Source: Favolaschia claudopus
Taxonomy: Eukaryota > Basidiomycota > Agaricomycetes > Agaricales > Mycenaceae
Assembly: GCA_037176885.1 (NCBI GenBank)
Contig: JAWWNJ010000016.1
Coordinates: 2,418,001-2,482,000, forward strand
Direction of reading: 5' to 3'
DNA length: 64,000 bases
The stretch's first letter is position 1. Each line of letters starts with the position of its first letter. The translations under genes and the position numbers were made by a program. The notes below the pieces were generated by a model. That model did no database searches. It was not told where the DNA came from and was given only the letters and a program-made list of their open reading frames with translations. Below are positions 27,221 to 55,162 of the stretch, in pieces.

Positions 27221-27780
27221 CACACCGGAAAAAACAAAATTTTAATATAGTCAAAAACGCCCCTCAAATGGGCTCAATTTAGTATAACATTTGTAATATC
27301 AGTAAAGGAAAACATTTGTTTTGTACCAAAAGACACCCGAAATTGTAAGGATTTGGCATACATAAAAGAGCAAAGGCAATGGAGGCCATTTAAGCGACGC
27401 CAAAAGCTGCGTGAAAAGGGGAGGATTTGGAGGCACTTTTAGACAGCCTCAAAGGAGCCCATTGAGCCATTGCCAAAAGGCGTCCCAAATTGGCGAAAAT
27501 TGGGGTCGCTTTTAGGCAAAGCACAAAGGAGGCCTTTTAGCGCGTCTGAAAGCAACCCCAAATGCTTAGCATTTGGAACGCCTTTCAGACGATCTAAAAG
27601 GCCAGCATTTAGGAAACGCCAAAAGGCGTTCCAAATGGGCACCATTTGGTTCCCGTTTTGGGTAAGCCCAAAAGTGGCACATTTTATTTTTCTAAATGCT
27701 CGTCCAAATGGAGCCCTTTTAGGCATACCCCAGGGTACACCCTGAGGTGCACCTCCGGGTAGTACCCGCGGGTGCACCTC
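27221..27780 (+). repeat. Left 560-bp terminal inverted repeat of the giant element
   Basis: It is nearly identical in inverse to 54,603-55,162. The interior is a dense array of short motifs (CCAAATGG, GGCGTCCCAAAT, AAAAGG, GCGTCTGAAAG) in both orientations, as expected for transposase-binding subterminal repeats. It ends in a 37-bp near-perfect palindrome (27,744-27,780). Confidence 0.9.
27744..27780. repeat. 37-bp palindrome at the inner edge of the left terminal repeat
   Basis: Arms GAGGTGCACC and GGTGCACCTC flank a second inverted pair (CGGGTA and TACCCG). The identical structure occurs at 54,603-54,639. It could fold as a hairpin or bind a dimeric protein. Confidence 0.75.
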
Positions 27781-28784
27781 CCTTGCTCACAGCTCAATGT
27801 CGAGGGGAAAGACAGCCATTTTTTATATTCTACTCCGCGATAATCCACATGATGAAACACTGCTAACACGATACTGGAAGCCAGCCCCCGACAAAAGGGA
27901 AGCGAAGGTGAAGAGAGCGCGATATCAACGCGGGAAACGAGTATATTCGGCTGAAACAGCAGTCATTCAAGGGAAGGAAGGAGAAGAAATGAGTGATGAA
28001 GGAGGCGCACCTCATTGGGTCAATCAATCGCTCGTCAAAATCGCGATATCCCCGCACGCAACCGCAACATATGCCGCAGACGAAGGAAGGCGTCGCTTCC
28101 ACCTCTACTTTGCCATTAGTCGTGGACACAACAAAACACCGCTATCCCTCCTTACTCGCCTTTTTCTATTCTGTTGGGGGTAGAGAAACCTCGAACGAAG
28201 GTCCCAGCCTTCGCGCCGCACTCAACTGCAACGGTATACCTCATCTCTACAACATCTCACCCCGCTATACCACCTCCCCACTCACCAACGAACCCATACA
28301 GTCCCCCACTTGCGCGGTCTTGAGGACGAGAGGGCTGCGAAAACCATCATCGTGAGCGCTCACAGAAGCAAGTAATAATAGGGGGGAAAGAAAACACGCT
28401 CACCGTCACCCAGGATACGCCCTCCCATTCTCCCTTGCCCGCCTCGCAAAAGGTGTATCATCTTCGTCCTTCCACGTTTCATGGAGGGTAGAGAACGAGC
28501 TTGTAAGTGACGCTCGCTGGAGTCGAAACTTGGGGAGAAGCCGAAGCCGAAGCAGACGCCGATCTCGGCGATTTAGTGAAAACAGAGTATGACTGTACGA
28601 AGAGGGATCGAATTAGTGAGGTGTAAGCAGGCGCGAGAAAAGAAAGGCACGCACGTCAACACTCGCCTGCCTCGCGCTCATTGGCTCCGGCGCAGCCGCA
28701 CTACACTTCCTCGTCGATGCCGGCGCCGGCGCAGGAATATCCACCTTCGCCTCCACCTTAATCTGCGCCGCCGCTGGCGCCAGC
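27781..28784. other. Unassigned stretch between terminal repeat and coronin fragment
   Basis: No gene is recognised. Weak similarity to the region inside the right terminal repeat continues for about 30 bp (CTCACAGCTCAATGTC against CTCACGGCTCGTTGTC), so the ancestral inverted repeats may have been slightly longer than 560 bp. The part next to the coronin remnant may hold decayed coronin 3' sequence. Confidence 0.35.
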
Positions 28785-30205
28785 GGGTGTCGGGGTCGAG
28801 CTAGCAAACGACTGGGCAGGTGCGCTCTTCCCCGGAAAGCTCACTCCATCTTGCAGATTCACTAAACGCAGAGGTGCGAATTTCCCAGAGAAGAACTTGG
28901 TGGCGCTGAGACTTGGTTCGGATGAGGGGGCAGGGGGGAAGATGTCGGATTGGAAGGAGTCGGCCTATGAAGCGTGTTTGTTAGCATTGGTTGAGAGAAG
29001 AGATGGAAAGAAGGGCGAAGGGGAAGCGCACACACCTTCCTCGGCACGATGAACGCGATCGGCTCGATACTCGACCCGGCGACCTTGGACGCACGGGTCG
29101 CAATCGCTGACGTTGAGTGCGCGACGGGGAAGGAAGCACATTCCACGCTGGGGGTCGGATGATTTGTGTTCCGAGAGCGCGTAGGGCGCGTCCGACTCGT
29201 ACTCGTAGTAACGAATATTACCATCTCTACATTCCATTCGTTAGTCAAAAGATCACGAAGAGAATAAATGGTAACAGGTACCCTTACCCGCCATAAACAA
29301 GATATTGTTATCCGACCAAAACCGCCCTCTGGTCGAGCACGATAGTCTTGATATTCCCTAACGCGCCCGTCTCCCACACGCCCATCTGCCGATCGCTCAT
29401 CTTGCTGAATCCGGTCGTGGCGATGCGATCGCGCTCGCCCATCCAGACGACGCGGGAGCCCTTGATGCCGCCGTGACCAGTCTACGGTGCGGACCGCGTC
29501 GGAGCCGGCGCGGGGTCGAAGAGGCGGAGCTTGCGGTCGCGGCAGGTGGTGGCGAGGAGGGTGCCGGTGGGGTTGAAGGCGGAAGATTGGAAGGCGTCGC
29601 CGTGCCCAGTGAGGGTTACGCGGGGATCTTCGGGGGTGGCGAGGTCTCTAATCTGTTTGGTTGTGGTTAGTACGCAGTAGGCCGTTCCGCCGACCCGACA
29701 AAGTGAAGGTGTATCGTTCTCCAGTTTTGGGTACGACAGACACTTGCAATTACAGAGCGAATTCGAGCCAGCGGCTTCGAATACACTCTTTGAGCGTCCA
29801 AGAACGATGATCTCAATAAAAGATCACAACGTAGACACTGAGCTTTACGGCGCCACCTGAGCTCGAGATTGTGAAGTGCCCATCGTTCTCCAAGTAACTA
29901 TTGAGCAATAAACGAAAAATATACCTTAATGACGTGCTCTCCAGACGCACTAGCCAGTTAGCCAGAACATTCGAAGCGGTTGGATGGAACATGACTTGAC
30001 CAACTTTACGAGCGGAAGCATCGAGGCGCGCGACAGGGTCGAAGTCGGTGGGCGCCCAACCTAGAAATCTCACTCAGTCACTCATACACAGTCAGTCCTT
30101 TCAGTTCACGCACCCTCAAGCCCCCATCCGTCAAACGTATTCGGATCGACCTTCCAGGTCATCACTTTACCGTCGTCTTTTGAAGCGTCCTACACCAACG
30201 AGTCA
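28785..30205 (-). pseudogene. Coronin (actin-binding WD40 protein) fragment, frameshifted
   Basis: Coronin peptides occur in order on the minus strand: DDGKVMTWKVDPNTFDGWG (about 30,170-30,110), GWAPTDFDPVARLDASARKV (about 30,060), GQVMFHPTASNVLA, GDAFQSSAFNPTGTLLATTC (about 29,580), GERDRIATTGFSKMSDRQ (about 29,440), GNIRYYEYESDAPYALSEHK (about 29,220), RGMCFLPRRALNVSDC (about 29,130), VAGSSIEPIAFIVPRK (about 29,060) and ADSFQSDIFPPAPSSEPSLS (about 28,960). In a functional gene these blades bind F-actin and the Arp2/3 complex. Here the N-terminal blades are missing, and compensating single-base changes disrupt the segment near 29,490. The middle blade (about 29,700-29,950) is degraded. The coiled coil is not recognisable. 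This is a captured host-gene fragment inside the transposon. Confidence 0.82.
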
Positions 30206-30684
30206 TCCCTGCGACGCCTAAAGACCAGCGTCCGAGCCGCCCGAATCGATATGCCGAGCGAAAGAGGAGGGGAGAAAGTTGGAATATGTGATCAATGTGG
30301 TGGTGAGAAGCAAGCCCGATGTAAGCGCTTATTTGCGCACATCACCGCACACCGGTGCTACGGGCGAAGCTACAGTCCACCAACATCCCGACCGTAAAGA
30401 GCCTTTGCTCGTCGAATTTCTTGCCTCGCGTCGTGCGAACAATCTCGGAGTCAGGGTGCGAAACCGCAAACACCTCGTCAAACCGCCATTTCGAAATCTT
30501 CGTCGTCCTCTTTCAAATCAAACTTATCAGACCCGGTAGGGGCAAGGGTGTGCGGATCGTCCACTGTGCCATCATGGCGCGTAGCTCGAAGATGGTCCTG
30601 AAGCGTGCGCCGGCGCAGGAACGTGCCTTTCGGCGAATGTAAATTTTTCTTCCCCGTACTTTGACCCCAGATTTACGTTTGCAG

Positions 30685-31199: not shown

Positions 31200-32630
31200 G
31201 TGACATCGAAAAAAATTGGGTGCCACGGCGAGTTCAAGCGTATCTATAGCAGATCGTTACGCCCCCGCCGACGAGGGGCCGCATATGCTCGAAAATGATG
31301 CCGTTGTCGGATAGCTAGAAGTTTTGTCATGACTTGATTTCAGGTCGGATGTATATAAGTGAATCGAATGTTGTGTAAGGCCCTCAGGCGTTGTTCAAAT
31401 CACGACTGAAGTGTCGATATTGATTCTAATCCCACGAAACATGAGTCCTAAGCATGGATTCCCCTACGTATACCTGCATCTCAATGAGCGAGGGGTTCTA
31501 TTTGATAATATGCAAACTCACCTATTCCCTCAATTCCCGCCAACGGCGAAGCAAAGGAGTGACTGTTGGAACGATGAAGCTCGCCGCTGCCGATATCAGA
31601 GTGTCAATACAAGGGAGATTTGCTTGGGGAGGGTACGAAGGTCACCTGAGCTCGCAAGGTACCCGCACCACCAAAAGTGGATGGGAATTCAAGGCAGCGC
31701 AGGAGGGTGCTCACACGGCACTTATTCAACTCCTCCTGGAGTGGCTAGGGATCAACTTTAAAGGAGATTGAGAACGAGCTCAAGTGTGTGTCGGAGGTGG
31801 CTGTGTTTACCTTGTTGGCGAGGAGGGTCAGAGAAAATGTCAAGAAGGAAAACCCTAAGTTTCGAATGTTGTACGGGCGAGGTATATAGATTCTGCGAAC
31901 ACATGAGAGTTGGTACTTGGCTCGGAGAGGCGAAAACAAACCATGCTGCGAGCGAATCTAAATCTTCTCAGTGATTGGCCGCGTTTCGAGGGGGTTGACC
32001 ACCACACTGACAAGAAACAAGCAGCTGGAGAATCTAGATTTGCATTCGTGAGCATGAGAATCAAAAGAGGAGGAGAGACAGGAACAAACCTCAAAAATCA
32101 AGGCAAGGAGGTCATTGATATGAGGGCGACTTCTGTAGCTGAGTCGGACCCGTCTAGTAGTTCCGAAGTTCACGTAGGCACTGTATTGTACGGATTGAAT
32201 GCAGGAGCGAGGCTAGGAAGACTGAAACGAACCTTCAGAGAATGCGGCGGCACCCGAGTTTTGGTGGAACGACATATTGCTTCATTATGAGTGAAGCGCA
32301 TTGGCGAGTGGTAGTCCGGCGAATCGAGACACTATTGAGATTTGAATGAGGCCTCACGGAGACAGATATGGCAAGAAATGCCAGGAAACCAGGCGATTTA
32401 CACCAGGCGGGTCAATGAGCGGGTACCCTTCTGTGACGGGGCACAAAGGGCGGAGAAGCCGCCAGAGGCATCGAGCGATCTACACTCGACTATGTATGTT
32501 CGTCTGGTGGGCGTAGAGGATATCCACCGGCACACTGGCGATCTACACCAGGTGGCGGAGGTCAAGGAACACCCTGACCCTGTCACTCTATGTCACATGT
32601 GACTGACCCGCCGTTTTGGGTCACGCAAAA
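31000..32630. repeat. Left subterminal inverted repeat
   Basis: It is inverse to parts of 48,808-51,960. The strongest match is 32,342-32,630 against 48,808-49,085, nearly identical in inverse, both carrying TGACTGACCCGCCGTTTT and the palindrome GTCACATGTGAC. Outwards, matches at 31,600-31,770 (CTCCTGGAGTGGCTAGGGATCAA) and 31,240-31,330 (CCGACGAGGGGCCGC) are weaker. A small frame at 31,910-32,290 (ending RAGARLGRLKRTF-like) is shared with the right side (49,921-50,193) and may be exonic. Confidence 0.75.
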
Positions 32631-32716
32631 AAGATTCAGACATTAAAATTTGCATGTTCATCGAGAGAGAATACAAGGAATACGACTACGCTGATGATAC
32701 ACAGAATATTGCGAGA

Positions 32717-35700
32717 TCAATAACGTCCACGAAGATTTCCAAACCCCACCGCACTAGCTCTCCCCTCAAATGATTCGTCTGCCGCAATCCTACTCACTGC
32801 CTCAAAACTTCGGGTTGTCAGTGCGAGATACATTAGAAAGAATATCAACATACCCTAGATAAATCCAATACAACTGCACGCTCGCCTGAGAAGTTGAAGC
32901 GCGCGTAGTGCCCTATCACTTTATCAGGGTCAACCTCGACAGTCGACTCAGACATCCTCGAGGAGTACGTGCGAGCTGGGAAATGAGGAAACGGTAAAAA
33001 AGGATCAGGAGAGTTTGGGGGCAACGGTTCCTGAGTTTCAATGATAAATTGCACCTGGTCTGCCGCCGGATCCAACACCTGTATCTTCACGATGCTCCCG
33101 AAGACAGTGTTGTTCCCCTCGTCTGAGAAAGAAACGAGACTGTTCCCAAGGTGTGTGCTCGCCCGGGAAAAGTGCATCCCTGCGTGATTGTGGTGTGCCT
33201 TCTCCTTTCTGTCTGAGGGCTCCGACCCCAAATCTTTGCGAGATTCACCCCTCTTGACAACGAACATGGTATACAGGCGGAAAAACTGTCGGACGAGCTC
33301 AGGGCAATCCTTGCGAGCAAACCACCGCCTCAGATTTGCGTTGCGCATCCATGTCTTGGCGACAGTTATTTCATGTTCACCTGTTCGATGGAAACAAGCC
33401 AAGGTCGGTCAGAGGGTGTATACGTTTCGAACAAAAAGGTTGCGACTCACCTCCAACATGGCTGTTGCTGTTGATTTTTTGCAGAATGCCAATGAGCTGT
33501 TCGGTCGGGAAGCACCACCATCCCGGAACGGGGCCCCAAAGGTGAAGAAAATCATACATGTGGAAGGCCATATGTATGGCCGTCTTCTTATGGTGATAGG
33601 AGGTATGAGGATGACATGCGTGTAGCTTTTCGACCCATGTCTTGATGAAATTCCTAAGCGTCTCAGAGCGTTCGTCGGACGAGCCGAAGCGACTGATGAT
33701 AGTTGCGGCCTGAACAAGTGCCATGCCATGCTCGAGAAGTTCGGGTTTCTGAGATTTGACGGCCCATAGAATCACAAGAGCAATACCAAGGTATATTGTG
33801 GCGAGTAGCCGCCATTCATCCGCCTTGAGAGAACCCGCCCCCTTTTCTCCATAATTTTTGGGAACATGATTGACCCAAGCGGGTGTCGTGGTGTCGCGAA
33901 TAACTTCTTGAATAAAGCGAAAGCTGGCCAAGTCAATGGCTCTTTCCGGCACGATCTTGTCTGGGTCACAAAGAGGCTTCGTGAGGCGCTAGACATTGAG
34001 ATGAGACCAGGAAAATTATTTCGTTCATTGGAAACTTACCCACTCCACGAGGAGTTCAGCTAAATGAATTCTCTGAACCAGGTCGAGATAATCTGCCCTT
34101 GTACATGTTTCTGGGTCATACTCAAAATCTTTATTGATCTTCGTGGGCATACGCTGGAGCGTCGCAGGATTCCCCTTCTTCCCCTTGGACTGTACTGGTC
34201 GTTCAGGCAGCTCCAAAGGTAGAGTTTTTGGCAACTCCAGTGTCCAACAGACGAAGCGCAGGGCGGGTTTAGACTTTCCCGCGAGCATATTCGTCAGTTT
34301 TTCTTCGGTCAAGGAGTCGTCTGTAGCAGTTTTGCCGCCCGCTTTGCGATTAGAGGTACCTTGATCCTCATCAACCCCGTCGACATCCATGGCGAAGTCC
34401 TCGCCGGCGTCCACATTTTCAGACGTGGTGTCACGAAATTGACGAACAAGAAGCTTATAAATGTCGAGAATATCTTTTTCGTTCGTTGGGTTCAATGGTT
34501 TTTCGTTCGCGTTCACTCGAGATTTAGGGACTTCAGTGTCAAGGGTGGCAAAGTCATATTCATAGGCTGGCGCGGTTTTTGTTATGTTGGCCGCATCGGC
34601 AAGATTGATCTCAAGGACTTCACGACAATAATACTGCACCCAACGTTCATAAATGGTATGCATAGGATCCGCGATAAGTGACCGACTCGGATCCCAGTAG
34701 GGCAGCCTCCACATTTCTGACCAGCGAAGTCCATGTTCTGTGAAAAGCTTTAGCTGCTCCCCTGCTGTATCGGCATCACGCCAGGCTTCAGCATGGCTCC
34801 GGAGCTTGTCCTTATCTCGTTTCGTCCAGTCTTCGAAATTAGTGTTGTATACAGTACTCCGGCCTTGACAGTTACAGCAAGTACAGTAAATGTTGGCATT
34901 GTGATTTGCAGCTCCAGCAAGCTGGCGTGCAGCTGGTAAATCATTGACGGCAAGGACGATGGCAAGGTCTGCGACACGACCAGTGGTAGGTTCGCTGGCA
35001 GTTGAGGAGAAGTGTATACCCCGCTCCCATCCCTGCAGGGCCGGTTCAATTATGGTCCGTATAAATGGATTCATTCCAATGAGGTGGGGTGACGCGGGCC
35101 CTGGAATTATGCAAATATACACATTCTCGGGGGCGTGGCGAACGGAAATGAGAGGAAGATTCAGACAGTATAGGTAGAGAAGTCCAATTGAATTCGAATT
35201 CGAACGCTTTCTGCTGCCAAACGGAGGGAAGAAATCCAAGCTTATGGCAAAAGCCAGGCGCATACGCTTCCCTGGGCGTTTGATGAAGAGTTCAATTCCA
35301 TCGCGATCCTTGAACTCGCGAAGGAACTCAGCCTGAAATACATCACCAACGAAGTCATAGTCTTTCATCTCTTCATTGAGCGCTTTATCACAGGCGTCAT
35401 CAAGCATTTTCTCAGTTTCTGGATTAGAAAGAAGACGAGCGATGTAGTCGAGGAAGCAAGGCGAAAGGAATGGCTTGATGGGGTGCAGCGCGGTTTTGCC
35501 CTCCTTCAGCAATGGTGTGCCACAAACCGACCGACCCTGTTTCCCAACGATCATATTGTTGCACTGGGCAGGCCAAGTAGGATCCGAAGATGTAGAAAGG
35601 GGGGTAGGAGCATAGAGTTCATGGCATGAGGGACACGTTGCGTACAATGTAGTTTTACAGTCCAGATTCATGGTAGACATAGCATCAAAAAGGCTGGTTG

Positions 35701-36548
35701 GTAGTTGCTTCAGAACATGCTCCTGCAGAGCATCAAACTGAAGCGAGCCCTTTGGATTCTTTACGGGGTTCAGCGCCATGGTGGACCTGACAAGAAGTTC
35801 AGAGGAGCCGATGATGAGATTTACATGATCCGCCGGCATGTTGAGGATGCTATGACAGACTAGTGCAAGTAGGATTACAATTTGCGCTTGCTCTGAGAGG
35901 TCGCCAATGGGATTGCGAGCAAGATAGCCTGAGAAGCGTCAACACAAGCGGGAATAGCAAAAGATTGCGCATACCTGAATCGTAGAAGAGCGGCCCCATG
36001 TCCGGTGGAAGCGTGGCGCGTAGCCCCTTCACCAGATCGTCCAACTTCCTCAAAGTCGCGACGACCAAAGATTTCTCGTCAGAGTCGCTGAACGGTTTTA
36101 ATGATTCGGCTGCAGTTGAGGCAGCGGCCGACGCCTCGTTGCAAATCTGCAATTGAAGTTCCACTGGTCCCCCTGTCATCGCGGCCAGAACGGAGGACAT
36201 GGCTGCCTCGATATCTCGCAGGATGAACTTCAGCAAGGAATCTTTTTGACCCTGCCGCCAAGGCTGTTTGACGTCGGCGCGTCGGGAAATGAGATCTGAC
36301 AGAACCCGCATGGTCTCCGTCATGACTTCACCTGCGTCTACAGGAGTTTCGGTGTTGGAGGCCGCGGAAGCATCGCCAACGATGACAGCGCTGGTAGTCT
36401 CTCGAACGAGGAGATTCTCAAGCTCCCGTTCGCGTTCGAGCTTGCGTCTCAGATCCTCTCTATGCACGTCTCTGAGATCGCTCCTGATTCGATGGGTTGT
36501 TTCCTCGAACGCGCAATTGCAATCGAAGTACTTTGCTTGAGGCGCCAT
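32717..36548 (-). CDS. Tnp2-type (CACTA/EnSpm) transposase, about 1,050 aa, several introns
   Basis: The ATG is at 36,548-36,546 and the inferred stop at 32,719-32,717. The N-terminus (36,548 to about 35,976) is charged and helical. The core after the first intron contains a four-Cys pair (CPSC...C), then SLDFFPPFG, YLYCLNLP, VYICIIPGP, FIRTIIEPALQGWERGI, CTCCNCQGRS and the family hallmark WRLPYWDPSRSLIADPMHTI (about 34,700), typical of fungal Tnp2 proteins (PF02992-like). Downstream exons give WVNHVPKNYGEKGAGSLKAD and HLWGPVPGWWCFPTEQLIG, the usual C-terminal Tnp2 blocks, then a shorter acidic tail. No frameshift was found. It should cut and join the element's CAC termini. The C-terminal portion is partly duplicated in inverse at 48,191-48,745. 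Confidence 0.85.
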
Positions 36549-37236: not shown

Positions 37237-38590
37237 TTATTTTCCATAGATCGCCCTCGGCAATTTAAACACGATTCTCTGTATCATCCCCGCCGATACC
37301 AGATTCTGGTAAATGAATGCAACGCACCCCAAGACTACGAGGGTCTTCAGGAAGATCTCCACTTGATACCATCCTATAAGCGATGATTGAGCTCTCTTCC
37401 ATACGAATATATCCTGGTATCCTTCGTCCCTATACGTGTGCGCCGCGAAAATTGTAGGAACCCCCCCAATTTCCGCCGTCTGTGGCATTTCTTGGTTAGC
37501 TCGGGGCGACCGTCAATAAGCCATACATACCGTGACGGCTTTCACCCACTTCGACTTCTTAGTGTCCAGCTTCTGAATGGTTTCTCCGGAACGAGCATCG
37601 AAAACATACAAAATCCCGTGGTCGCTCCCAGCGACGATCAACCGACCCTTCTCACCAAAGCACGCATCGGTCGTGTAGGGCTCACCCTCGGTCTCCGTAG
37701 GCACCTCAAATGAACGGGCCTTGGCTTCGTCTGCCAAACGGAAGAGTCCCGGACCAAAGTAGGGGTCGTTCAGGCAGAGAACCCCCTCTTTCCAGTCAAC
37801 GTCGGCAGAGCTACTGCGAACTCAGTGTCAGCAGAGTTTCGCTAGTATGGACAGTGCACCTTACATATATCCACCCGCCATCCAATCCCCCTTCCATTTA
37901 CCTGTGCTCCCCGACAAAGTCGCGCTTTACCGAAATTCAGAGCAGATTCAGCATGCGACGAAGTTGTGACTCACACTGGTCCGTTGTGGCCCGAACCAAA
38001 GGCCACAATATCGCGGTCACCGCTGCTATCGAACCCGGCGAACGTGATTGCTCGGGGAGCAAGGCCAGCTATTTCGTTGCTGAAAATATTAGATGCGCTC
38101 CATTTGCCGTTAACGCTATTCTTCAAAATCTTCCACGCTTGGACGATATCCGACCGACTGCAAATACAGAGTATGTTCTTGCTGGGGTCGAAAGACAAGC
38201 CCGTAATCTCGCCTGAGGTCGTGATTTGTTTGGAGAAGGTTTCCTCAAAGCCGTCGTCTCCTCGGCGCCAACAAGCCCATGTTCCGCTCTGAGTTCCAAA
38301 GTACAACACGTCGTGCGGCTCATCAGTTTGACGTGCCCAGTGCAGGGAGCTGGTATGGCCGCGAGTGCCAGCGCCGGTAGGACGCTTGAGCTCCTTCATG
38401 GTTTTGGTGTCAAAGAGCCGGGTACCCTGCGAGCCTGTGACGGGTCAGGGTACCTTTGACCTCTTACTTCGAAGCGCTTACCTCCCGTCGCAAGGGTTTT
38501 GCCGTCTTCCGTCACAGCGAGCACGAGGATCAAGCCTGAGTGAAGTTGCACACCGCGGTGCTTAGTGTAGGCGAAACGGGAGAAGGACAT
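37237..38590 (-). CDS. WD40-repeat protein of an Agaricomycete dispersed family
   Basis: It starts MSFSRFAYTKHRG at 38,590 and runs through several short introns to a stop at 37,237. The frame includes GGSQGTRLFDTKT-type blade ends, SSLHWARQ...DVLYFGTQSGTWACWRR, GEITGLSFDPSKN, ILCICSRSDIVQAWKI, RAITFAGFD...DRDIVAFGSG, DWKEGVLCLNDPYFGPGLFRL, GRLIVAGSDHGILYVFDARSG and GVPTIFAA. These are degenerate WD40 blades. The order matches a family repeatedly found near transposons in Agaricomycetes. A hydrophobic C-terminal segment (about residues VEIFLKTLVVLGCVAFIYQN) follows the last blade. Cellular function is unknown; it is probably a transposon passenger, not a host housekeeping gene. Confidence 0.72.
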
Positions 38591-40503: not shown

Positions 40504-41091
40504 ATGCCTTCGACACGCGTACAAGTAGACCCTGTAAGAGTTCCTTTCACTGTCGCTTTTCGTCTGTCTGACATAACGTGCAGGCCCCTACCCACCCAGT
40601 CCTTCACTGTCGTGTCTACTCGACCACGCGCGATCCGCATTATACGACCACCCCGGTGAACTGCAAGCCAGACGACGATCACCATAATCCACTCGGATTG
40701 CGATTTCCTCTAGTAGAGTCGCTGTATTTGGATGGACGGTCGCAGTCCTATATCCACGACGCGCATGTAGAGGTTACACACAACGGCAGGACGTACGCGT
40801 TCCAGGTTTTCTTCAAGCGCGGTGTTGCGCTTGTCCCAAATCACTGCGCTCCTGACCTCGTGTCCGCCGTCGTCATTATGAAGCTGTCCCAGGTCGACAA
40901 TTCGACCGTCGTCAATGCCCGTAGGTCGGCTGAAGAGCGCGACATGATGGACTTCGTGTTCGAGAAGTACGTCGGTCTACTCATTGACAATATATTCATA
41001 TCTCATTGCCTACGGCAGACTCAGCCCGACGATCGAGCATTTCCAGAGGACCAAGTATTTCACGACGCGGGCGCTGATATTTGACTACTAG
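40504..41091 (+). CDS. Small transposon-associated hypothetical protein (three exons)
   Basis: Exons are 40,504-40,533, 40,584-40,966 and 41,019-41,091, with GT-AG introns of 50 and 52 nt and phases that agree. The product is about 161 aa. It starts MPSTRVQVDP and ends ALIFDY. The middle has a beta-rich look (LYLDGRSQSYIHDAHVEVTH, YAFQVFFKRG). I recognise this type only as a recurrent companion of large basidiomycete DNA transposons; no domain is named. The spliced reading gives a clean stop, which the unspliced frame does not. Confidence 0.6.
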
Positions 41092-44535: not shown

Positions 44536-44603
44536 TACGCATTCGCTACACGTCTCGCTCGCTACCAGCTATTATCTTCTACTGCTATATTATTGGCTGA
44601 GCT

Positions 44604-47600
44604 ATGTCCGCATCTACCCACAAGGTATAGTTTTTTCTGCATCTCTAGAGTTAGTAGTTAATACTCAGATAGACTTCTGCTTCCAATGCTTGGTATTCTA
44701 TGCCACAGGACATGTATGATACAGCTACGGTATGTGCTTTACCATTAGGTTGTATAGCTTCAGCGCTAACTCCTGCCCTCAGAAAGAATTTACTCCTCAA
44801 ACCGGACATTATCGCGTCGGAAAGAATTTTTATACTACGTTCATGGGCACACGCGAAATGATTTTAGACACCCCGTCCGCCAAAGCTGCTCCTTGTCCGA
44901 CTCCGTGGGATCGAAACCCCGATTTCCTCACCCCCACACGCATCTCCGCCCGATATCCTTTTCATGCTTTCATACCAAAGCACGATCCATGGCAGGGGCC
45001 GTTCTTGGGATGTCTCAATTACACTTTCCGCAATCTGCCAATTGTCCAAGGAGAAGACGGAACTTGGTCCCTACACCAAGACGCTGTACACGCTTGGCAG
45101 GATCTCGAGCTTTGCTTGCGCGCAGTGGGTCGTGAGATGCTCTTTCTTTCCACAAATCCATTTCCGAAAGAGGGATTTGAGTGGCTCGTTCCACACCAAT
45201 TCAATTATAGTGCACACTATAAAACCGAGAAGGGTGCGCGTCTGGCTGCTTGGCGTTCCAAGCAAAAATTTCTGCCGCTTCTGGGTCTTGTTTCCATGGG
45301 ATTTTGGTACATGATGCACGATGAGACGGAAGACGAGAACGAAAAGTACGAGGGCGAAGAGAGGAGCGGAGCGGGCAGCAAGCGGAAAGCATCAGATATC
45401 CCTGCGTCCAGGCCCACTAAGAGGGTCAAGACCGGCAAGGGGAATGCTCCACCGCAGCTCAATGTTCCTTGGCGGCAGGCCCTAGCAGAAAAGCTCAAAC
45501 TTCAGCCTTCCTGGCTGGATTGGCTTGAGGATTCAATCGCGGCTGATTTTAGAGTTCCTCGAGTTGGTGCGCTCGTAGACCTGCAGCCAGAGGACTTAGA
45601 TGACGCGGATCGTCCTCTTACCTTTTCGAAATCGGACACCGGTCTGGAGTGGCTTATCTTGAGCATTTTACGCAAGACCTCTCCGATCCCCCTCTATTTC
45701 TCGTGGGGTCCTCTTCACCGCTCTGTCAACTTTGCCGTTCCCGAATACCTGAGCCGCCTTGGGCTGGTCCCAGACCCAGACCAGATCCAATATCTGAAAC
45801 AAGCGCAAATCGCCTTCAGCCCGTTCGAGTACAACGTACCCAGCGGAGCATTCGTCCCTGAGCGCAAATCATCTGCTTCACGATCAGGGGTCCTTCCCCA
45901 ATCTGACCTTCCTTCCACCTCCGTTTCGCGCAAAGACACTGGTGCGAGACAACTCGCTGCGCCCCCGCCCAAATCCTTGCCGACTCGCACCAGCGCTGGC
46001 CCCAATACGCCCTCAACGTCCAGTCACGCTGGCCCCAACATGCCCTCCACGAATAGTGCAGATGCTGCTCCTCCATCGTCTCTCGACAATTTTCCTCCTG
46101 TTCATCGCAATAGCGGGCAGAGACACCAAGAACGCATAGAAGATTTCTTTCAGCGGCGGGAACGAGAGAATTCTCGTAAATCGGCGACTGAGAATCCAGC
46201 TGACAAGACTGCTCGCATGCAGCGCGAACAGAATGCTCAGCGGGGACAAGCACCCGGGAAAAAGGGTGCATGCGTGTTCGTTTGGGAAAAGGAGGATAAC
46301 AGTGTTTTCTATATTCGGCGTCCTGGAGGCCGCAAGAGTTACGAAGATTTATTCGAAACATATGGCCCTTCGCAGCGCCGATACGATAGTTTTCGTGATG
46401 AATGGGATCTTTGCTCTGCTTTCGGAGACGACCGTGGCGCCGACGACGACGCTGGTGGTGACCAGTATGGAGACGACGATGACGACGCAATGGACGAGTA
46501 TGAACGCGGTTTCCAAACCGCTGTCGGCGCTCCTCTGAGCCAGAAAGCAGAACCTTTGCCTTTGGCAGATGTTGGGCCAGCGTCTGAGCGAAACCTCCAG
46601 CGGATTTATCTCCATTTTGGACCATCAAAGGCGGACGAAGAGGGTCAAGTTGACCCTCCAAGGTATCGAGCTATCGCAGAGGATTTGACTACCTCGCTAC
46701 TCAAGCGATTTGGGTTCATGATGGGCGAGAGCCTCTCGAATCCTGCTCGTACACCGGAGGCTTCAATTGTGGCGAACTTGGTCGGGATGGAGGATATCGA
46801 TGCCCAGTTCGCAGGTGTTATGGCGACATTCTTTGGACAGTTCCTGGAGGCCAAGAGTATAGCCGGCATTGATTCGACTATCTTCGACTTTCATCAACGT
46901 AGGGGCCCTCTTTTCCAGGATAGAGCTGTCGTGGTACGTCGCGAGACACTCACCAATGTCGCTGAAGAGACTTCCGCCGTGTACTACACTCTCTCCGATC
47001 ACGGCAGCGGATATGGGAGCCAAGTCTTACTCCTGCAGAAAGCCGCAGATGTTTTAGAAGTCCTTCGACAGGGTTGGGGTCCCCGAGTGAAGGATGTCGC
47101 TGGAGAACTTCTGTCGCGCGGGATGCCTTTCCAGCTCGCAGTGAAAGACTCAGCCAATCTCGTGCGCCAGCGTGCCAAGGTGATCTCTGGATATTGTCGG
47201 GTCAATGTAGATTCAGGGCTAGGTTTTCGCCCCCAGCACTATGAACCCAATATCCACGATTATCATGCGTATCTTTCTCGTCTCAACTCCGAGTTACTCC
47301 ATACTCGGCGGGGCCATGTAGCTCCGCTCTATGGCGGGGTCATTGGGCGAATAGCACGAGAGGAGGTCTGCGACGAACATGTCCTCCAAGGTCCAAGCGA
47401 CGACGTCTACGACGACGGGGTATGCGTGTGGGACGGCCAATCAGACCATGCGTACTGGTACGAAACCTTGAGCGAGCATGAGATAGATGTCATTTGTGGT
47501 GTTTACTACGTGGCGACGGGTATGTGGCCTGTGCTCCTTTCTCTCTTTCGCATCCTCACCAAGTCAATCTAGGCAAAAAGTTAGAGGCTGGCGAAGAACA

Positions 47601-47859
47601 GACAAAGCTTCTTTCGTGGTGGCCAAAACCCAACGCATGGCAGAAAGGTAACCTGGATCCTGGCTGGTGGTCGCCCGCATGCGAGGGCTGGTATCAAAAG
47701 AGGCGCCTTCGTCTGGGAGACGCCAACAGATACGGTGAGAAAGGCATGCTAGCGCGCCCCAACGAGTGGAAACACAACCTTCGCTTTGTCAAGACCCTCA
47801 AGGATATCGTGCAGGCTCACGAACGAATCTCATCTCTGGTCCTCGACGAACTATTGTAA
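44604..47859 (+). CDS. Large transposon-associated protein of unknown function, about 1,030 aa
   Basis: It starts MSASTHK, followed by two short 5' introns (ends near 44,672 and 44,783). A long exon then reads to 47,519, a 53-nt intron follows, and the last exon ends at 47,859. Blocks: CPTPWDRNPDFLTPTRISAR, PFHAFIPKHDPWQG, WRSKQKFLPLLGLVSMGFWY, LKLQPSWLDWLEDSI, PLYFSWGPLHRS, a Ser/Thr/Pro linker, an acidic Asp run (46,430-46,500), SRLNSELLHTRRG, and after the last intron LLSWWPKPNAWQKGNLDPGW. The pattern is that of a dispersed Agaricomycete family with a WD..P....R.P...P start and a C-terminal WWP...W block. Activity is unknown. Recurrence with Tnp2 genes suggests a role in the element or a passenger. 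Confidence 0.68.
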
Positions 47860-48190
47860 TATCCAAAGAATCACGTTCTCTGCAATATTGTCCTATAGCG
47901 TATTAAACAATGTATCCTTCGATGTAAACACTGTACATAGGGCTGTATTACTTCGCTTCTGTAGCACTTTAATGATATTTTTCTCCTCGACATTTTGCGT
48001 GACATAGCTGGCGGGTCAGTCACTTGTGACAACCCCACTTGCCCTTCTCCACCCTGTGTAGATCGCTCGGTGTCTTGAATCTTGTGAATACTCAGCTCAT
48101 CCTCCAAATTCCTCGTCTCTATTACTCCCCACCAATTGAGCAAAATCGCACGAGGATCGAGAGTAAAAGATCTCTCACCACGAAATTGCA

Positions 48191-48745
48191 ATGCACAAAG
48201 AGAAAGCACACTATAATTATGCAGGAATGCGGCTCTCGCGAGCATCGACGCACCTCGGTAACAGCCTTGTCTCATTCCTAGACGCGAGCGGAAATGCTGC
48301 GTTTGGCAGCATTGAGAGGATAGAGGTTGTCGACTCGGAAATAGACAAAGTTCAGCTCATCATCCGACCTCAAGAGCCGCTACCCTCTGGCGTTGATGAT
48401 GCTTTCCAACTCTTCCCGCAGCTTGCCGTTTCCGTTTATTCCTCGAAGATGGCAGACTTCACCCTCGCCGTTGACCCAAGTCAAATAATTGGATACTACA
48501 GCCGTTTTATTCTCTCAGACGACCGTGCGGCTGTAATGGAACTATCTAGGGTATGCTGTTATGACTCTTTTGTGATTCTCCTTATACTCATTTTTACAGG
48601 ATTGAGTCGATGTCCCGAGGTGGGAGCAGGCGGGTCTTGGGCGGGTCATCAAGGAGATGATTTCGCTCTGTCACAGCATCAACAATTTCGTGTCTGTAAT
48701 ATTCCCTATATAGCGACTCTTGTGTGTATGCCTAGAACTTTGTAA
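48191..48745 (+). pseudogene. Truncated, inverted duplicate of the Tnp2 C-terminus
   Basis: The translation aligns with the intact Tnp2 gene at about 33,200-32,850: both have SRASTHLGNSLVSF, FGSI.KI/RIE, QEPLP, a YSS.M motif and Q/KVIG.Y.RF. Identity looks like 55-60 percent, so the duplication is old. The upstream catalytic parts are absent, and the reading after the putative intron near 48,550 is short. It forms the inner end of the right subterminal inverted repeat. It is therefore a relic, not a second transposase. Confidence 0.75.
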
Positions 48746-48807
48746 ATCTTTCCAATTCTATCCCCTCCACATTGCTGTATAATTTTTTGTGTGATTTCTT
48801 TCTCTGT

Positions 48808-51800
48808 GTGACCAAAAACGGCGGGTCAGTCACATGTGACATAGAGTGACAGGGTCATGTTCCTTGACCTCCGCCACCTGGTGTAGATCGCCAGTGTGCC
48901 GGTGGATATCCTCTACGCCCACCAGACGAACATATATAGTCGAGTGTAGATCGCTCGATGCCTCTGACGGCTTCTCCGCCCTTTGTGCGCCGTCACAGAA
49001 GGGTACCCGCTCATTGACCCGCCTGGTGTAAATCGCCTGGTTTCCTGGCATTTCTTGCCATATCCGCCTCCGTGACATTCAAATCCAAATAGTGTCGGAA
49101 TCCGCTGGACTACCACTCGCCAATACGCTTCACTCATAATGAAGCAATATCCCACCGAAACTCTGTCGCTGGGTCATTCTTTGAAGGTTTGTTTCAGCCT
49201 GCCCGGTCTTGCGCATACTCTCATTTCGTACAATGTAGTGTCTACGTGAACCTCCGGACTTTCAGAGGGGTTTGACTCAGCTACCAAAGTGTCACCCATA
49301 CCCTTGACTGTGTTGCTCTCGTTTTCGAGGTTTGTTCCTGCCTCACCTCCTTCTTGATTCTCATATTCGCGAATGTGTTATATAGGCTCTACAGCTTGCT
49401 CTCCTCTATCTGCGGCGGTCTGCTCCTCCGGGATCGACCACTCGCTGAATAATCTCTGAATTCGCTCGCAGCGAGGTTTGTTTTCGCTTTTCAAAGCCAA
49501 GTATCTATCTCAATCCGCTCATAGAGTCTATATATTATATCTCTACAACAGCCAGAACCAGCAACTCCCCCCTTGCTGACGATTCTTTCGACCCTGCTCC
49601 CAGAAGGTCAGCACAGCCACCACCGACGTACTAGCTCGTTCTCAACTTCCGTTGAAGTTGACCCTTAGCCGCTTCAGGAGAAGTTGTCTAAGTGTTTTGG
49701 GAATCTATACCCGCGTTGGTTTGAATCTAGTCCCATTCTTGGGGGTGCGGGTACCTCGGGAGCTCAATCGACTCGACCCTCGTACCCTCCCCGAGCAAGT
49801 CTCTCTCGGATCAGAGGCCTTATTGTAAATCCCAATAGTCCCCCAATCTGCTGCAGCGTTACTTGCCAACGCGCTTGACTGGTCATCAAGCAATATGTCG
49901 TTTCACCAAAACTCTGGTGCTTACATCTCTCTAAAGGTTCGTTTCAGTCTTCCTAGCCTTGCACCTGCCCTCAATTCGTACCATACAGTGTCTATGTGCA
50001 CTCTCGGACCTACAGAGGGGTTCGACGCAACTACTGAAGTGTTACCCATATCTTTGACCGTATTGCCAGCATTCGAGGTTTGTTCCTGCCTCTCCTCTTT
50101 TTTGATTATCATGTTCACGAATGCGTTACATAGGTTCTCATGCTGCTTGTTTTCTCTCACTGCGGCAGCCTGCTGCCTTGGGAATGCGGCCACTCGCTCA
50201 ATAATCTCTGGATTCGCTTGCAGCGAGGTTTGTTTTCACTTTCTAAGCCAAGTACTTATCTCAATCTGCTCATAGAGTTTAAATATATCTTCCGTACAAC
50301 ATTCCGTACAACAGCCAGAACCAGCAGCTCCCCCCTTGCTGACGATTCCTTCGACCCTCCTCGAAGAAGGTCAGCACAGCCACAGCCGACATACTCGAGC
50401 TCGTTCTCAAACCCCTTTAGAGTTGATCCCTAGCCACTCCAGGAGGAGTTGAATGAGTGCTGTGAGAACCCACTCCTGCACTATCTTGAACTCCAATCCA
50501 TTTTTGGTGGTGCGGGTACCTCGCGAGCTCAGGCAACCCTCGTACCCTCTCTAAGCAAAATGCCCCTGGATTGACAGCCTGATATCGGCAGCGTCGCTTT
50601 ATGGCGCCCAAAAAGCTGTTGTTTTGATCCGTCGTTGGCGGGAATTGAGAGAAGAGGTGAGTTCGAGTACCTTCAAATAGAACACTCCCGCTCATTGAGA
50701 TCAAGGTCATGTGTAGGGGATCCATCTCTAGAAACTATATACCGTGTCACCAGAAATGCAATATCAACACTTCAATTCGCGATTTAAATGGCGCTCGAGG
50801 GCTTTTGTTCAGAATTCAAGTCACCTTCGGTATATACATTCGACCTCAAACTAAGCCATGCCCAAATCTCAATCTATTCGATATCGGAATTATCTTTGAG
50901 CATACGTGACCCCTCGTTGACGGGGGCGTAAAGCTCTGCTATTCAAAACACGAGTTCATGTGGGGGCGAAATTACTCCGCATTTAATTCACATCGGTGCA
51001 TCGGGTTCACCCGCCTCCCTCAAGCAGCCATGCATGATCCCTCCCATGTCGGCGAGAGACTACGCTCCCACGTATACCTATTGTTGGTCCCGGTGCCCGT
51101 CAGAAAGTGACTCCCCGCTGAGAAGTTTCTGGACAGGCTCACAGCGAGGTTTGTCTTTCTTTTTGATCTACCTGCCCACCCTCACCCTAATTCTTTTACA
51201 GAGTCTATATACATAGCTCGAACGACTGCCAGAAGTCGTGCCCTCCCTCTTCTTGACGATCTCTCTTACCCACTCCCAAGAAGGTCAGCACAGCCACCGC
51301 GCCGACATGTTCGAGCTCGTTTTCAATACTCTTTAGATTTGATCCCTAGCTACTCCAGGAGGAGTTCAATATGAGCTTTGGGAGCCCCCTCCCGCGCTGC
51401 CTTGAATTCTCGCTCATTTTTGGTGGCGCGGGTACCTTACGAGCTCAGTCGACCTTCGTACCCTCCTTAAGCAAATCTCTCCTGGATGGACTGTACGATA
51501 TCATCATTATCGGCGGCTTGTTACGCCGCAGAACTCGCTGTTTTGTCTCATCATCTACGGGAATTCAGAGAATGGTGAGTTTGCGTATCTTCAAAGAGAA
51601 CACCCTCGCTCATTGAGGTACAGGTATACGTAGGGGAATCCATGTTTAGGATCCATGTCTTGTGGTGTCAGAATTAATATTAACAATCTATTCGCGATTT
51701 GAACAACGCCTGAGGGCCTTACACAACATTTGATTTACTTATATACATTCGACTTGAAATCAAGTCATGCCTACATTTTTAGCTATCCGACAGCAGCATC

Positions 51801-51960
51801 ACCTTTGAACATAAGCGGCCCCTCGTCGGCGCGCGGGGAGAGATCTACTATTGTCCATGAAAGGCTCAAACTCGCCGGTTCAGCATTTTTCTTCATCCGA
51901 GTACTCACAACAGCAGTATCAAAAAAACAATTGGGGGGAATTTGCTCTATAGAGGCACAC
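48808..51960. repeat. Right subterminal inverted repeat with tandem units of about 0.8-0.9 kb
   Basis: It is inverse to 31,000-32,630. It has at least three degenerate tandem units, marked by GGTCAGCACAGCCAC near 49,605, 50,371 and 51,286, each followed by a GAGCTCGTT-like block and a CTCCAGGAGGAGTT-like block. The left side has fewer units. Pieces related to the 3' end of the GIY-YIG-like gene are embedded (around 51,000-51,100). Confidence 0.7.
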
Positions 51961-52002
51961 TACACACAGGTAAGTCAAAGACATGTTGTACGGAAGCAAA
52001 AC

Positions 52003-52498
52003 TTACCGAATGATTGGCTGCGCAGTGTCCGTCAATACATCTTCCACCACCCGCCTTATATCTTCTAGTCCCCCGATTCCCACACCGGCAAAAAATTCTC
52101 TGTGTCTCCGACCGCATTTGCACAAAAACGGCTTGACTTGCAGTCCAAGGTGTCGCAATCGACCGTGAATGATGGCTTCTGTCAACTCCCATGAGTGGTG
52201 CACCCGCAGGTAAGGAATTCGTCTTACCCGTGACGCGAATACAATCCGATTTCCAAAAGTAGAGCCACCGAATACGAGGGCAGTGCCTATACTCCCGCTG
52301 CCGCCTCGGTAAATTTTTCGTCAATCCATATTTGACCCTCGTTCCGAGCAGAACACCGGTGACTCGATCAATCACATCCTCCTCGAGCGCGTAGATTCCG
52401 CCTCGAGACTCGGAATACGGGTTGTATTGAAGCAAAAATCGGAGTTTTAGGAACAGCGGTATACGACCTCTGTTTGGTAATTGAGCTGCCTGCGTGCA
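52003..52498 (-). CDS. GIY-YIG/T5orf172-like protein, right copy (5' end not fixed)
   Basis: The minus-strand frame after an AG acceptor near 52,499 includes SRGGIYALEEDV, then TRVKYGLTKNLPRRQREYRHC, the GxIYxLE and VKxGxTxxxxxRxxEY blocks of the T5orf172/GIY-YIG superfamily. After an intron of about 50 nt (GTAAGA...GACAG) comes EAIIHGRLRHLGLQVKPFLC and CGRRHREFF, parallel to the left copy. Stop TAA at 52,005-52,003, overlapping a GTAAGT donor, so another exon is possible. The upstream exon (about 52,510-52,580) is uncertain. Unlike the left copy, the GIY-like and VK.G motifs are close to consensus. It may be a nuclease; activity is inferred only from the motifs. Confidence 0.6.
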
Positions 52499-54602
52499 AT
52501 AAAAAAGTGAGTCGCACAAGAATTGCAGAAGATAGGTTCTTGGCCATTGATCCATCACCATCACCAACAGCACCGGCCGCGCGTGGACGATAATACTCGT
52601 GTTTCTAAGAAAAGAGTCAGCACAATGGGCTGCATTTGCTGTATGCCGGACCTGGACACGGTGTTAACGAAGAAACTGGCAAAGAGCTCGGTCAGTTTTC
52701 GTTGTACAGGGTCAGACCAGAATCCACCGAATGTTTTCTGCAGATGCCATGGATTCAGATGGAAGAGGAGAACGATTCAGAAACAACGAGCAGGCCGATG
52801 CAGGTCGGTCGCGTTGTGACTGACGTGACGCATCTTGTTCTCGTTCTCTATCTACTCCCACACTTCGCTTTCACCAACTCAGCAGCGACTCCGGTCTCGA
52901 CTTTTCCCCCGTTGCCTAACGTGTCGAAGGCGTGTCTTTAACTCGGTGGACGAAATCACCAATCGGCGCCAGCAATCGACTTGCACACTTGCGCAGGCAT
53001 CGTAAGGCCGACAGCATCATATCCCTCGAAGACTAGCCTCCGGTCGTCTGAGCAGGTTTCTGTCGACGCGCCGGCGCGCCGCTCTATCTCGGCGGATTGG
53101 TTGACGATGAAGAGTGATCGGCGATATATTCCAAGACATTCAGTAGAGGTCTCCGCTCGTTACGACTAAGGCATGTCTCGCGTTCTACTTCCCCCGCTCG
53201 TTCGCAGCGCAGGCGACACTTCCTGATGTCTTGGTGTTTGCGTACCTAGTCCTTGGGCCTCGTTTAGGCTGTCTGGCTACGTGCGCGCAGATTTTGAAGG
53301 GGTCGTTGCGTGGATGGAGCACAGGCACCCCGTTTGACCCCGACCCCTGACCTTCTTTGTTCTCTACCACAAGCTCGTCAACAAGCAAGCCGCCTGATTC
53401 ATCATCCACCCCTTCGCAACCCCGCTGTCGCGCTTCCATGCGCTAAGCCGGTATGTAACCACAATTCTTTCCTCTTTCGTCTTCTCACTGTAACGCAAAC
53501 GCAGATCCATGGCCGCCCAATGCCTCGCCTTCCGAAACACACGACCCGCCTTTCCCCTCTCCTGCTGACCCGTCTCCCAGTGTCACCGTTAAGAAGTGAC
53601 AAATTTTTCGGCGTACACGACTCGACAACCACACTGCTTCGAAGTCCCTCCCACACCGTCTTCACGGCCTCGTACGACAAAGACAGCGACGTCAAGTGCG
53701 GTATGACGAGCAAAGGTGCGTGGTGATCTCGTTTCTCTTCTTCATTATATTCACCTACCCTACCTCTAGCCCCTGCTCCTCAACGCACGCCATAGAGCCG
53801 GGCTGACGCTCTTCCTCCCCTTTCGCTCCCTACCTACCGCGATCTACTACGGTACACGTTTCCGGCGCCTCTCCTCGTTTCTGCCCACTTACCTGAATGC
53901 AACGTTCTAGCTTCGACACTCCCGACTTCAGTCTACCAACGCGTCAATATCAATACTTACTAACGACTGTGCGCACGCCCTAGCTGAGGATGATTATCGT
54001 TGGGAGCGTAACCAGCAGAATTATCCCGAGCGGGGGCGTCATTCCAGCGCCAGGGGGAGGCGTCAATCTCGGGGAATGGGAACATGCACGGCAGTATCGC
54101 TTCTGTGAGGTTCGCTCCCCATCCCTCCCTCTTCTCTATCACATCTCAACGGAACGCAGGAAACTTTCACCCGGGAAAACATCACCAACACCATCCTCCC
54201 TTACCCCGAGCCCATCTATCACTTCTACGTCAATCTCGCCGTCTCGTATCATCCCACCGCGGTGCGGGGCTCGGATACTGCCGATGATTGGCCGCTGCGC
54301 TCCTCCCGGACGCGGAATTGGCGGGTCGGTTGAGGAGGGCGGCGCCGAGTGAACACAATTCCTAGATTTTGGGGCCGTACCGCTCGCTATTGCGTATCAG
54401 CCAATTTCGGTGTAGCAGCTCGGGTTGAGGGAAGAGATGTCACGAAGGTGCACAATGGTGGACCCGGTAAGTTCATCCCACTCGGTTACTCGTTCTCTTC
54501 ATGAACTAAATGGTAATGGTCGTAGTAGCCGTATCTTTATAGCAACGTAGCGTCTGTAGGAATATTATTACCTTCCCCCTTGACAACGAGCCGTGAGTTG
54601 GC
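52499..54602. other. Cargo region with unassigned exon-like fragments
   Basis: Protein-like pieces on the plus strand include GPGHGVNEETGKELGQFSLY with RPESTECFLQMPWIQMEEE (about 52,645-52,790), SDKFFGVHDSTTTLLRSPSH (about 53,600) and ETFTRENITNTILPYPEPIY (about 54,170). Splice-like sites flank some of them. None is identified. By analogy with the coronin fragment at the other end, they may be captured host exons. No intact gene is supported. Confidence 0.35.
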
Positions 54603-55162
54603 GAGGTGCACCCGCGGGTACTACCCGGAGGTGCACCTCAGGGTGTACCCTGGGGTATGCCTAAAAGGGCTCCATTTCGACAAACATTTAGAAAAATAAA
54701 ATGTGCCACTTTTGGGCTTACCTAAAACGGTCGCCAAATGGTGCCCATTTGGGACGCCTTTTGGCGTTTCCTAAATGCTGGCCTTTTGGAGCGTCTGAAA
54801 GGCGTTCCAAATGCCAAGCATTTGGGGTTGCTTTCAGACGCGCTAAAAGGGCTCCTTTGTGCTTTGCCTAAAAGCGACCCCAATTTTCGCCAATTTGGGA
54901 CGCCTTTTGGCAATGGCTCAATGGGCTCCTTTGAGGCTGTCTAAAACTGCCTCCAAATCCTTCCCTTTTCACGCAGCTTTTGGCGTCACTTAAATGGCCT
55001 CCATTGCCTTTGCTCTATTATGTATACCAAATCCTTACAATTTCGGGTGTCTTTTGGTACAATATAAATGTTTTCCTTTACTCTCGTTACAAATGTTATA
55101 CTAAATTGAGCCCATTTGAGGGGCGTTTTTGACTATATTAAAATTTTGTTTTTTCCGGTGTG
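54603..55162 (-). repeat. Right 560-bp terminal inverted repeat of the giant element
   Basis: It is inverse to 27,221-27,780 and of identical length, with the same palindrome (54,603-54,639) and the same subterminal motif arrays. It ends CCGGTGTG, directly followed by CAA (55,163-55,165). The few base differences between the two termini are consistent with a fairly recent insertion. Confidence 0.9.

Follow-up and report, generated by a model that had tools for sequence, protein, structure and literature searches.

We analyzed a 64-kb window of the genome of the mushroom Favolaschia claudopus (64,000 bp of contig JAWWNJ010000016.1; hereafter the window) and find that positions 27221-55162 very probably constitute one copy of a family of giant cut-and-paste DNA transposons of the EnSpm/CACTA (CMCT) type. 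The EnSpm/CACTA superfamily itself is known, and the giant F. claudopus family is a variant of it, not a Starship. The anatomy of the element, as read from its sequence, strongly supports mobility as a unit, and we infer how it may transpose and what its accessory proteins may do. Each copy is labelled by the contig that holds it, C16 being the copy in the window, and the genome searches covered the F. claudopus assembly of 264.6 Mb in 460 contigs.

Ends, copies and empty sites

The terminal inverted repeats (TIRs) of C16 align without a gap, with 537 of 560 positions identical between the left TIR (27221-27780) and the reverse complement of the right one (54603-55162), and terminal homology extends as far as 591 bp. 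The element starts with CACACCGG, ends with CCGGTGTG and is flanked by a 3-bp target-site duplication (TSD), CAA, at 27218-27220 and 55163-55165. Both the 560-bp inverted termini and the duplication had been proposed in an earlier sequence-only reading of this DNA. Searched against the genome, the 560-bp end gave 26 matches, 12 of which span 559-560 bp at 94-100% identity and form exactly six inverted pairs; the remainder are one partial end of 77% identity on C15 and short matches. The six elements lie on six contigs, in both orientations, and measure 27942 bp (C16), 27453 bp (C12), 28674 bp (C10), 26708 bp (C24), 19108 bp (C170) and 37689 bp (C89). All six carry the CAC..GTG termini CACACCGG...CCGGTGTG, and each has a perfect 3-bp TSD of its own, CAA in C16 and GCT, CGT, ACT, ACA and TCA in the others, with differing bases adjoining it.

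Empty sites were searched with the left and right flanks of each copy (300 + 300 bases) joined as one query, the best 40 of 142 candidates being scored. Junction-spanning matches were obtained for all six copies, and 14 such places were aligned. The empty site of C16 is 97% identical overall, matches every base across at least 24 bp both left and right of the junction, and holds a single CAA; empty relatives lie on C50, C21, C56 and C176, the first two of which were aligned. The corresponding identities are 89-93% for C12 and 94% for C10. The sequence-only reading had named as evidence of two separate insertions the finding of solo termini with neither other full-length copies nor empty sites; here none of the 12 near-full-length ends stands alone, each belonging to one of six two-ended elements, and every copy has an empty-site match. 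Note that, because 86.8% of BUSCO genes are duplicated in the F. claudopus assembly (PMC10905254), it probably contains both haplotypes or duplicated regions.

A diverged seventh element, C47:1057628-1125282, is 67,655 bp long and flanked by TGA on both sides. Its ends are 64.5-66% identical to those of the C16 family over about 560-630 aligned positions, and it keeps the order of the core segments, with about 21 and 28 kb where the C16 element has about 3 and 5 kb. A repeat of about 0.6 kb, of which more than 20 further near-full-length copies occur genome-wide, is nested in the right TIR of C47 (C47:1124418-1125019). The 77% right end on C15 (C15:1033962-1034589) continues into a stretch of arm and had no partner in the genome search; it may belong to a third lineage or be a remnant.

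Transposase and classification

As had been claimed, a Tnp2 transposase lies inside the element, PF02992 matching at 34025-35938 on the minus strand with 37.2 bits for the exon and 35.9 bits for the full model, against a cut-off of 28.6. The aspartates D411 and D508 (P0007 numbering) are invariant in 17 of 17 aligned sequences, and all six rows that extend to an FPxExxxG-like stretch have a glutamate in it; in an alignment of 31 rows the second aspartate is invariant and the first is conserved at 90% or more. The C16 protein also contains both a C(2)C and an HxxxH motif. In our own reading of these sequences, the D, D, E triad with C(2)C and H(3-4)H between the second D and the E would conform to the motif rule given for CMCT transposases (PMC12730594). 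Tnp2, the CAC..GTG ends, the 3-bp TSD in 6 of 6 copies and in C47, and the subterminal motifs described below agree in placing the element in EnSpm/CACTA, the class that the sequence-only reading had assigned.

No match to PF18759, which we take to be the Plavaka domain, was obtained in the full-length transposase at E<=0.1. A relative among JGI proteins, P0038, carries PF18759 together with PF02992 and ties the labels Plavaka and Tnp2 to each other. Plavaka elements likewise have a CMCT transposase but differ in their termini, TGT..ACA or CATCA..TGATG (PMC12730594), and were rejected on these termini and on the PF18759 result. KDZ elements were rejected on TSD length, 3 bp here as opposed to 7-8 bp (PMC12730594), and because the transposase is Tnp2, not KDZ.

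Core genes

Five copies are collinear over window positions 30735-49811 with a divergence of 2.9-5.5%; C170 lacks the segment at about 38.5-49.0 kb, which leaves five full-length copies of six. Genes were described by home-made spliced models whose frames were checked in these five. Four models are open in 5 of 5 copies, namely Tnp2 (1176 amino acids, aa), a WD40 protein (314 aa) and proteins of 686 and 1017 aa, and the 637-aa exon of Tnp2 is open in all six elements at 98-100% identity. Of the at least six non-transposase genes previously counted, three are thereby retained, but those of 351, 176 and 190 aa keep an open frame in only 3, 2 and 1 of the five copies. The ratios of non-synonymous to synonymous divergence (dN/dS) among the five are 0.37 for Tnp2, 0.27 for WD40, 0.94 for the 686-aa gene and 0.22 for the 1017-aa gene, pairwise values that are rough because the copies recombine. 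In the 0.5-kb stretch at 40504-41084, dS reaches about 0.2 among the copies, 3-10 times that of neighboring models, as if alleles of a diverged lineage had been mixed in.

The 686-aa gene has in-frame indels that preserve its frame in all five copies. No homologue of it was found at E<=0.001 among the best 7994 candidates ranked by common words, a list that low-complexity words may have swamped, and a PDB sequence search with the 686-aa protein and with P0001, a relative of the 1017-aa protein, returned 0 matches. In Mycena venus, the 1017-aa protein and Tnp2 both have relatives on a contig of 2,074,661 bases, probably one and the same contig given the identical length.

We consider the WD40 gene unlikely to be host cargo. 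The WD40 protein and the Tnp2 exon were each searched in the F. claudopus genome, to which this adjacency count refers, and the best 69 of 229 Tnp2 and 126 of 145 WD40 candidates were scored; 72 Tnp2 and 138 WD40 rows, merged when on the same contig and strand with gaps of at most 3 kb, gave 67 Tnp2 and 61 WD40 loci. A WD40 match lies upstream on the same strand within 12 kb at 45 of the 67 listed Tnp2 loci (median distance 2.4 kb), which are not independent of one another because copies of one family, perhaps from both haplotypes, are included. It lies downstream on the same strand at none and upstream on the opposite strand at two, and when the WD40 positions were shifted by 20-200 kb either way, the eight shifts left 3, 2, 0, 0, 0, 0, 0 and 0 pairs. 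The upstream neighbor is present at 41 of 50 Tnp2 loci scoring at least 200 bits and at 4 of 17 below, and with the seven giants left out at 38 of the 60 that remain listed. Seen from the other side, Tnp2 is downstream of 45 of the 61 listed WD40 loci, while the other 16 lack a Tnp2 match over the 12 kb downstream; among the WD40 matches, many are weak, with E up to about 6e-4.

Variable arms and exchange between copies

The arms between TIR and core are mostly unalignable among the copies, apart from about 100-300 bases beside the TIR and diverged inner stretches. The arms of C10 and C170 have a common piece of 0.9 kb at 96%, and window positions 51999-52733 are in part 66-69% like eight other places. 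The host-gene fragments that had been seen in the element are located in these arms. Spliced models of those in the left arm of C16 match WD40_4 (PF16300, E 1.1e-8) and WD40 (E 2.6e-6), which we read as a putative coronin, and two segments of the left arm of C10 encode parts of an AMP-binding enzyme (E 1.8e-45 and 1.8e-21), in our reading probably an acetyl-CoA synthetase. C170 contains a DDE_3 transposase by Pfam. Ten proteins, nine of them from arms, were scanned against Pfam, and five had no match at E<=0.01. In the long arm of C89, at about 24.6-35.8 kb of the oriented element, Ty3-like retrotransposon ORFs (open reading frames) were recognized by eye, next to a 967-aa ORF. The sequence-only reading had treated all non-transposase genes as cargo, a description that suits the captured host sequence of the arms but not the WD40 neighbor of Tnp2 and the 1017-aa gene, which look like the transposon's own set.

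As evidenced by pairwise comparison, the nearest pair changes along the core. C16 and C12 differ by 0-0.8% at 30.7-36.7 kb and by 0 to 11.4% thereafter; C12 and C10 by 0.2-1.0% at 41.2-44.7 kb and then by 6.4%; C24 and C89 by 0-1.8% at 37.2-47.2 kb. This pattern indicates that the copies recombine along the core. Between C16 and C47, Tnp2 shows dN 0.22 and dS 1.55 (ratio 0.14), and dS for WD40 is 0.08. The 36.8-40.1-kb module, judged from its similarity in the two elements, appears to have been exchanged between the C16 and C47 lineages or acquired twice from one source.

Architecture of the termini and short relatives

The 37-bp palindrome noted earlier at the inner edges of the TIRs is present in 12 of 12 ends, but it is imperfect, with 32 of 37 positions self-complementary in C16 and 26-32 across the ends. 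The 560-bp ends are real, but the term TIR may cover two parts, since each end seems to be made of a terminal repeat joined to an array of subterminal motifs. Eight CYAAAWGG sites (in either orientation) lie at TIR positions 253-502, where 500 dinucleotide shuffles gave a mean of 0.25 and a maximum of 2; note that the motif was picked post hoc, after k-mer counts. About three sites occur in C16 outside both ends. Plant CACTA ends likewise consist of TIRs and subterminal repeats (PMC8978399, PMC2613891).

A 25-base terminus pattern with three mismatches allowed gave 50 matches in the genome and 0 for the reversed control. Paired by hand, 12 matches belong to the six giants and 22 to 11 short pairs, and 16 are single. 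Ten of the short pairs measure 386-388 bp and look like miniature inverted-repeat transposable elements (MITEs), two of them having been read: each is 386 bp long with an AGT/AGT duplication, and its likeness to the giants is limited to the outer 50-73 bp. The CYAAAWGG motif occurs five times in the MITE (shuffle mean 0.19, maximum 2). The eleventh pair, of 961 bp at C58:682573-683533, is unlike the 386-bp elements. A relative family on C228 and C76 shows homology throughout the 3.8 kb compared, no boundary being reached. Among IMG/VR contigs, 22 pattern matches were obtained and no relative was confirmed.

A model for the family

In the mechanism that we propose, the Tnp2 DDE transposase would cut at the CACACCGG ends with the help of proteins that bind the array of subterminal motifs. 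The WD40 protein, and probably the products of the 686- and 1017-aa genes, would be accessory proteins of the element itself. Sequence of host and transposon origin would enter and leave the arms between core and TIR, and recombination between copies would shuffle arms and core segments, even across lineages whose transposases are near synonymous saturation. We give an even chance to the combined proposal that a fungal Tnp2 clade has an ancient and obligate partner in the WD40 protein, the two forming a new two-gene transposition system, and that the giants are a recombining network with fixed core and ends and interchangeable arms and modules. Should the WD40 protein prove to be a partner in transposition, CACTA-type transposition outside plants would gain a factor amenable to testing.

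Alternative explanations

Two independent insertions of a short repeat could have come to flank unrelated DNA, and short elements with like termini do exist (11 short pairs and 16 single ends among the 50 matches), but the probability is negligible, given that all 12 long ends are paired, that one matching TSD flanks each complete unit, that the core is collinear in five copies and that the short elements share just the outermost bases with the giants. The inner inverted repeats carry a decayed second Tnp2 C-terminus, from which an ancestral duplication can be deduced, and they might suggest a segmental duplication or a decayed, immobile composite of two head-to-head elements; with a 3-bp duplication and differing adjacent bases for each copy, on six contigs and in both orientations, we hold this to be very unlikely. 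Size and gene content, together with long, Polinton-like TIRs, would also suit a Starship or a Polinton/Maverick-type element. Starships have a tyrosine-recombinase captain and are not known to carry Tnp2, and Polintons/Mavericks have PolB, a retroviral-like integrase and TSDs of 6 bp. The element in the window has Tnp2 and a 3-bp TSD, and no tyrosine recombinase, PolB or capsid family was found among the scanned ORFs and spliced models of the window (some small ORFs were unscanned). Both candidates were rejected and we rate their chance as extremely small, in keeping with the earlier statement that this is not a Starship-type element. It is unlikely, if less remote, that the core genes for WD40 and the 686- and 1017-aa proteins are captured host cargo. 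WD40 repeats are common among host genes, 16 of the 61 listed WD40 loci have no downstream Tnp2, just 4 of 17 Tnp2 loci below 200 bits have the neighbor, and the dN/dS of the 686-aa gene is near 1. Against this stand the upstream WD40 at 45 of 67 listed Tnp2 loci, with none downstream on the same strand and 0-3 pairs after shifting, and the Mycena venus relatives of the 1017-aa protein and Tnp2 on contigs of equal size; the 686-aa gene is without such support.

Several observations weigh against the reading of C16 as a mobile EnSpm/CACTA element with genes of its own. For C24, the empty sites reach just 75-77% identity and show small gaps close to the insertion point; the C170 site (87-88%) carries a 3-bp indel at that point, and the match for C89 (85-94%) begins 31-145 bp left of the junction. 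Moreover, all empty sites come from one assembly, as paralogous or allelic loci, and are not polymorphisms between strains. No empty site was found in the F. claudopus genome for C47, whose extra stretches may for that reason never have moved, and the C47 end has just two CYAAAWGG sites, equal to the shuffle maximum. The transposase of Mycena venus scores 27.9 bits for PF02992, just below the cut-off, and its AlphaFold model (predicted local distance difference test, pLDDT, 72.3) gave no significant match to PDB with Foldseek and VIA-align. The top row, 6b40 BbRAGL (RAG-like) at E 0.36, is a hint only, and the VIA-align rows of the model lie mostly over an N-terminal helical bundle. A Tnp2 intron in C10 has a GG splice donor, and the last micro-exon of the Tnp2 gene model is probably wrong. 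The dN/dS of the 686-aa gene has been mentioned, and the AlphaFold model of P0001 reaches a pLDDT of only 31.9. Finally, the first five letters of the element are CACAC, not CACTA. TIRs of plant-type CACTA elements are generally short, and because of the CACAC start and the 560-bp TIR we file C16 under the EnSpm/CMCT superfamily and not under plant CACTA sensu stricto.

Comparison with known systems

The fungal EnSpm (CMCT) elements described by Kojima in 2025 have CAC..GTG termini, a 3-bp TSD, a transposase with C(2)C and H(3)H and a TET/JBP gene (PMC12730594). The C16 family is alike in termini, TSD, transposase motifs and the carriage of an accessory gene, but it carries WD40 and other genes in place of TET/JBP, and the term WD40 is absent from the main text of that paper. 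Enlarged EnSpm elements with several ORFs are known from the red alga Chondrus crispus (16-20 kb, 4-5 ORFs; PMC6431247) and from Ectocarpus (at most 15.2 kb, with nested transposable elements in giants; PMC12477816, which also gives 31.7 kb for a Chlamydomonas KDZ element); the F. claudopus family differs in its size of 19-38 kb, with one element of 67.7 kb, its 560-bp ends and its variable arms. The soybean CACTA element Tgmt* (20.5 kb) likewise has Tnp2, a 3-bp TSD and subterminal repeats, but its TIRs are 13 bp long and its subterminal repeats asymmetric, and it has one large gene (PMC2613891). Pack-CACTA and Tgm-Express elements also contain captured host-gene fragments, whereas the F. claudopus elements keep an open transposase gene. 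A transposable element library of Marasmius oreades includes elements of up to about 42 kb whose type is unstated (PMC9674265).

In this literature EnSpm elements reach 15-20.5 kb, and the F. claudopus family is longer. In the open literature (subscription journals and Repbase not covered) we found no report of this giant family, of fungal EnSpm elements with a WD40 gene or of Tnp2-WD40 pairing. Giant gene-carrying fungal elements are mostly discussed as Starships, which have been reported in a basidiomycete (PMC13066641); here a mushroom family of DDE type offers full-length copies together with TSDs, matching empty sites and genes with open frames. With host-gene-bearing arms swapped between fixed ends and core, the gain and loss of cargo by a DNA transposon becomes testable within one genome.

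Features of the window

Features are collected in Table 1.

Table 1. Features of the C16 element and its insertion site (window positions)
Feature	Position	Strand	Evidence or remark
Multi-copy ORF split by the C16 insertion	26783..27220 and 55166-56014	-	joined flanks form one 428-residue open stretch
Left TSD, CAA	27218..27220	.	flank reading
Left TIR, CACACCGG...	27221..27780	+	537/560 to right end; 12 near-full-length ends genome-wide
Subterminal array in left TIR, 8 CYAAAWGG/CCWTTTRG sites	27473..27722	+	dinucleotide shuffle
Imperfect 37-bp palindrome, inner edge of left TIR	27744..27780	.	32/37 self-complementary; mirrored at 54603-54639
Left variable arm	27781..30545	.	among six copies shared at length with C12 alone (99.3%)
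Captured host-gene fragments, coronin-like	28583..30177	-	81-87% to places on C34, C63, C68
Left inner inverted repeat	31246..32650	+	75-80% to parts of 48781-51831
Tnp2-type DDE transposase, about 1176 aa, 4 exons (model)	32854..36548	-	Pfam scan, spliced model
Module 87% identical to C47	36797..40113	.	86-99% per 250 bp from 37.3 to 40.0 kb; Tnp2 side 69%
WD40 beta-propeller gene, 314 aa, 5 exons (model)	37430..38590	-	spliced model
176-aa model, low confidence	40504..41084	+	stops in 3/5 copies
686-aa gene, 7 exons, coiled-coil-like	41559..43938	+	open in 5/5; all introns GT-AG
1017-aa gene, 3 exons, relatives in Mycena	44700..47859	+	spliced model, homologue search
Decayed inverted duplicate of Tnp2 C-terminal exon	48191..48721	+	65% DNA match; 190-aa model overlaps, open in 1/5
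Right inner inverted repeat, with internal direct repeats	48781..51831	-	self-comparison
Right variable arm, mostly unique to C16	51832..54602	.	copy comparison
Right TIR	54603..55162	-	end alignment, genome search
Right TSD, CAA	55163..55165	.	flank reading

Just left of the element, an inverted repeat pair of 121-124 bp at 94-95% identity (25684-25807 and 26020-26143) perhaps marks another small element.

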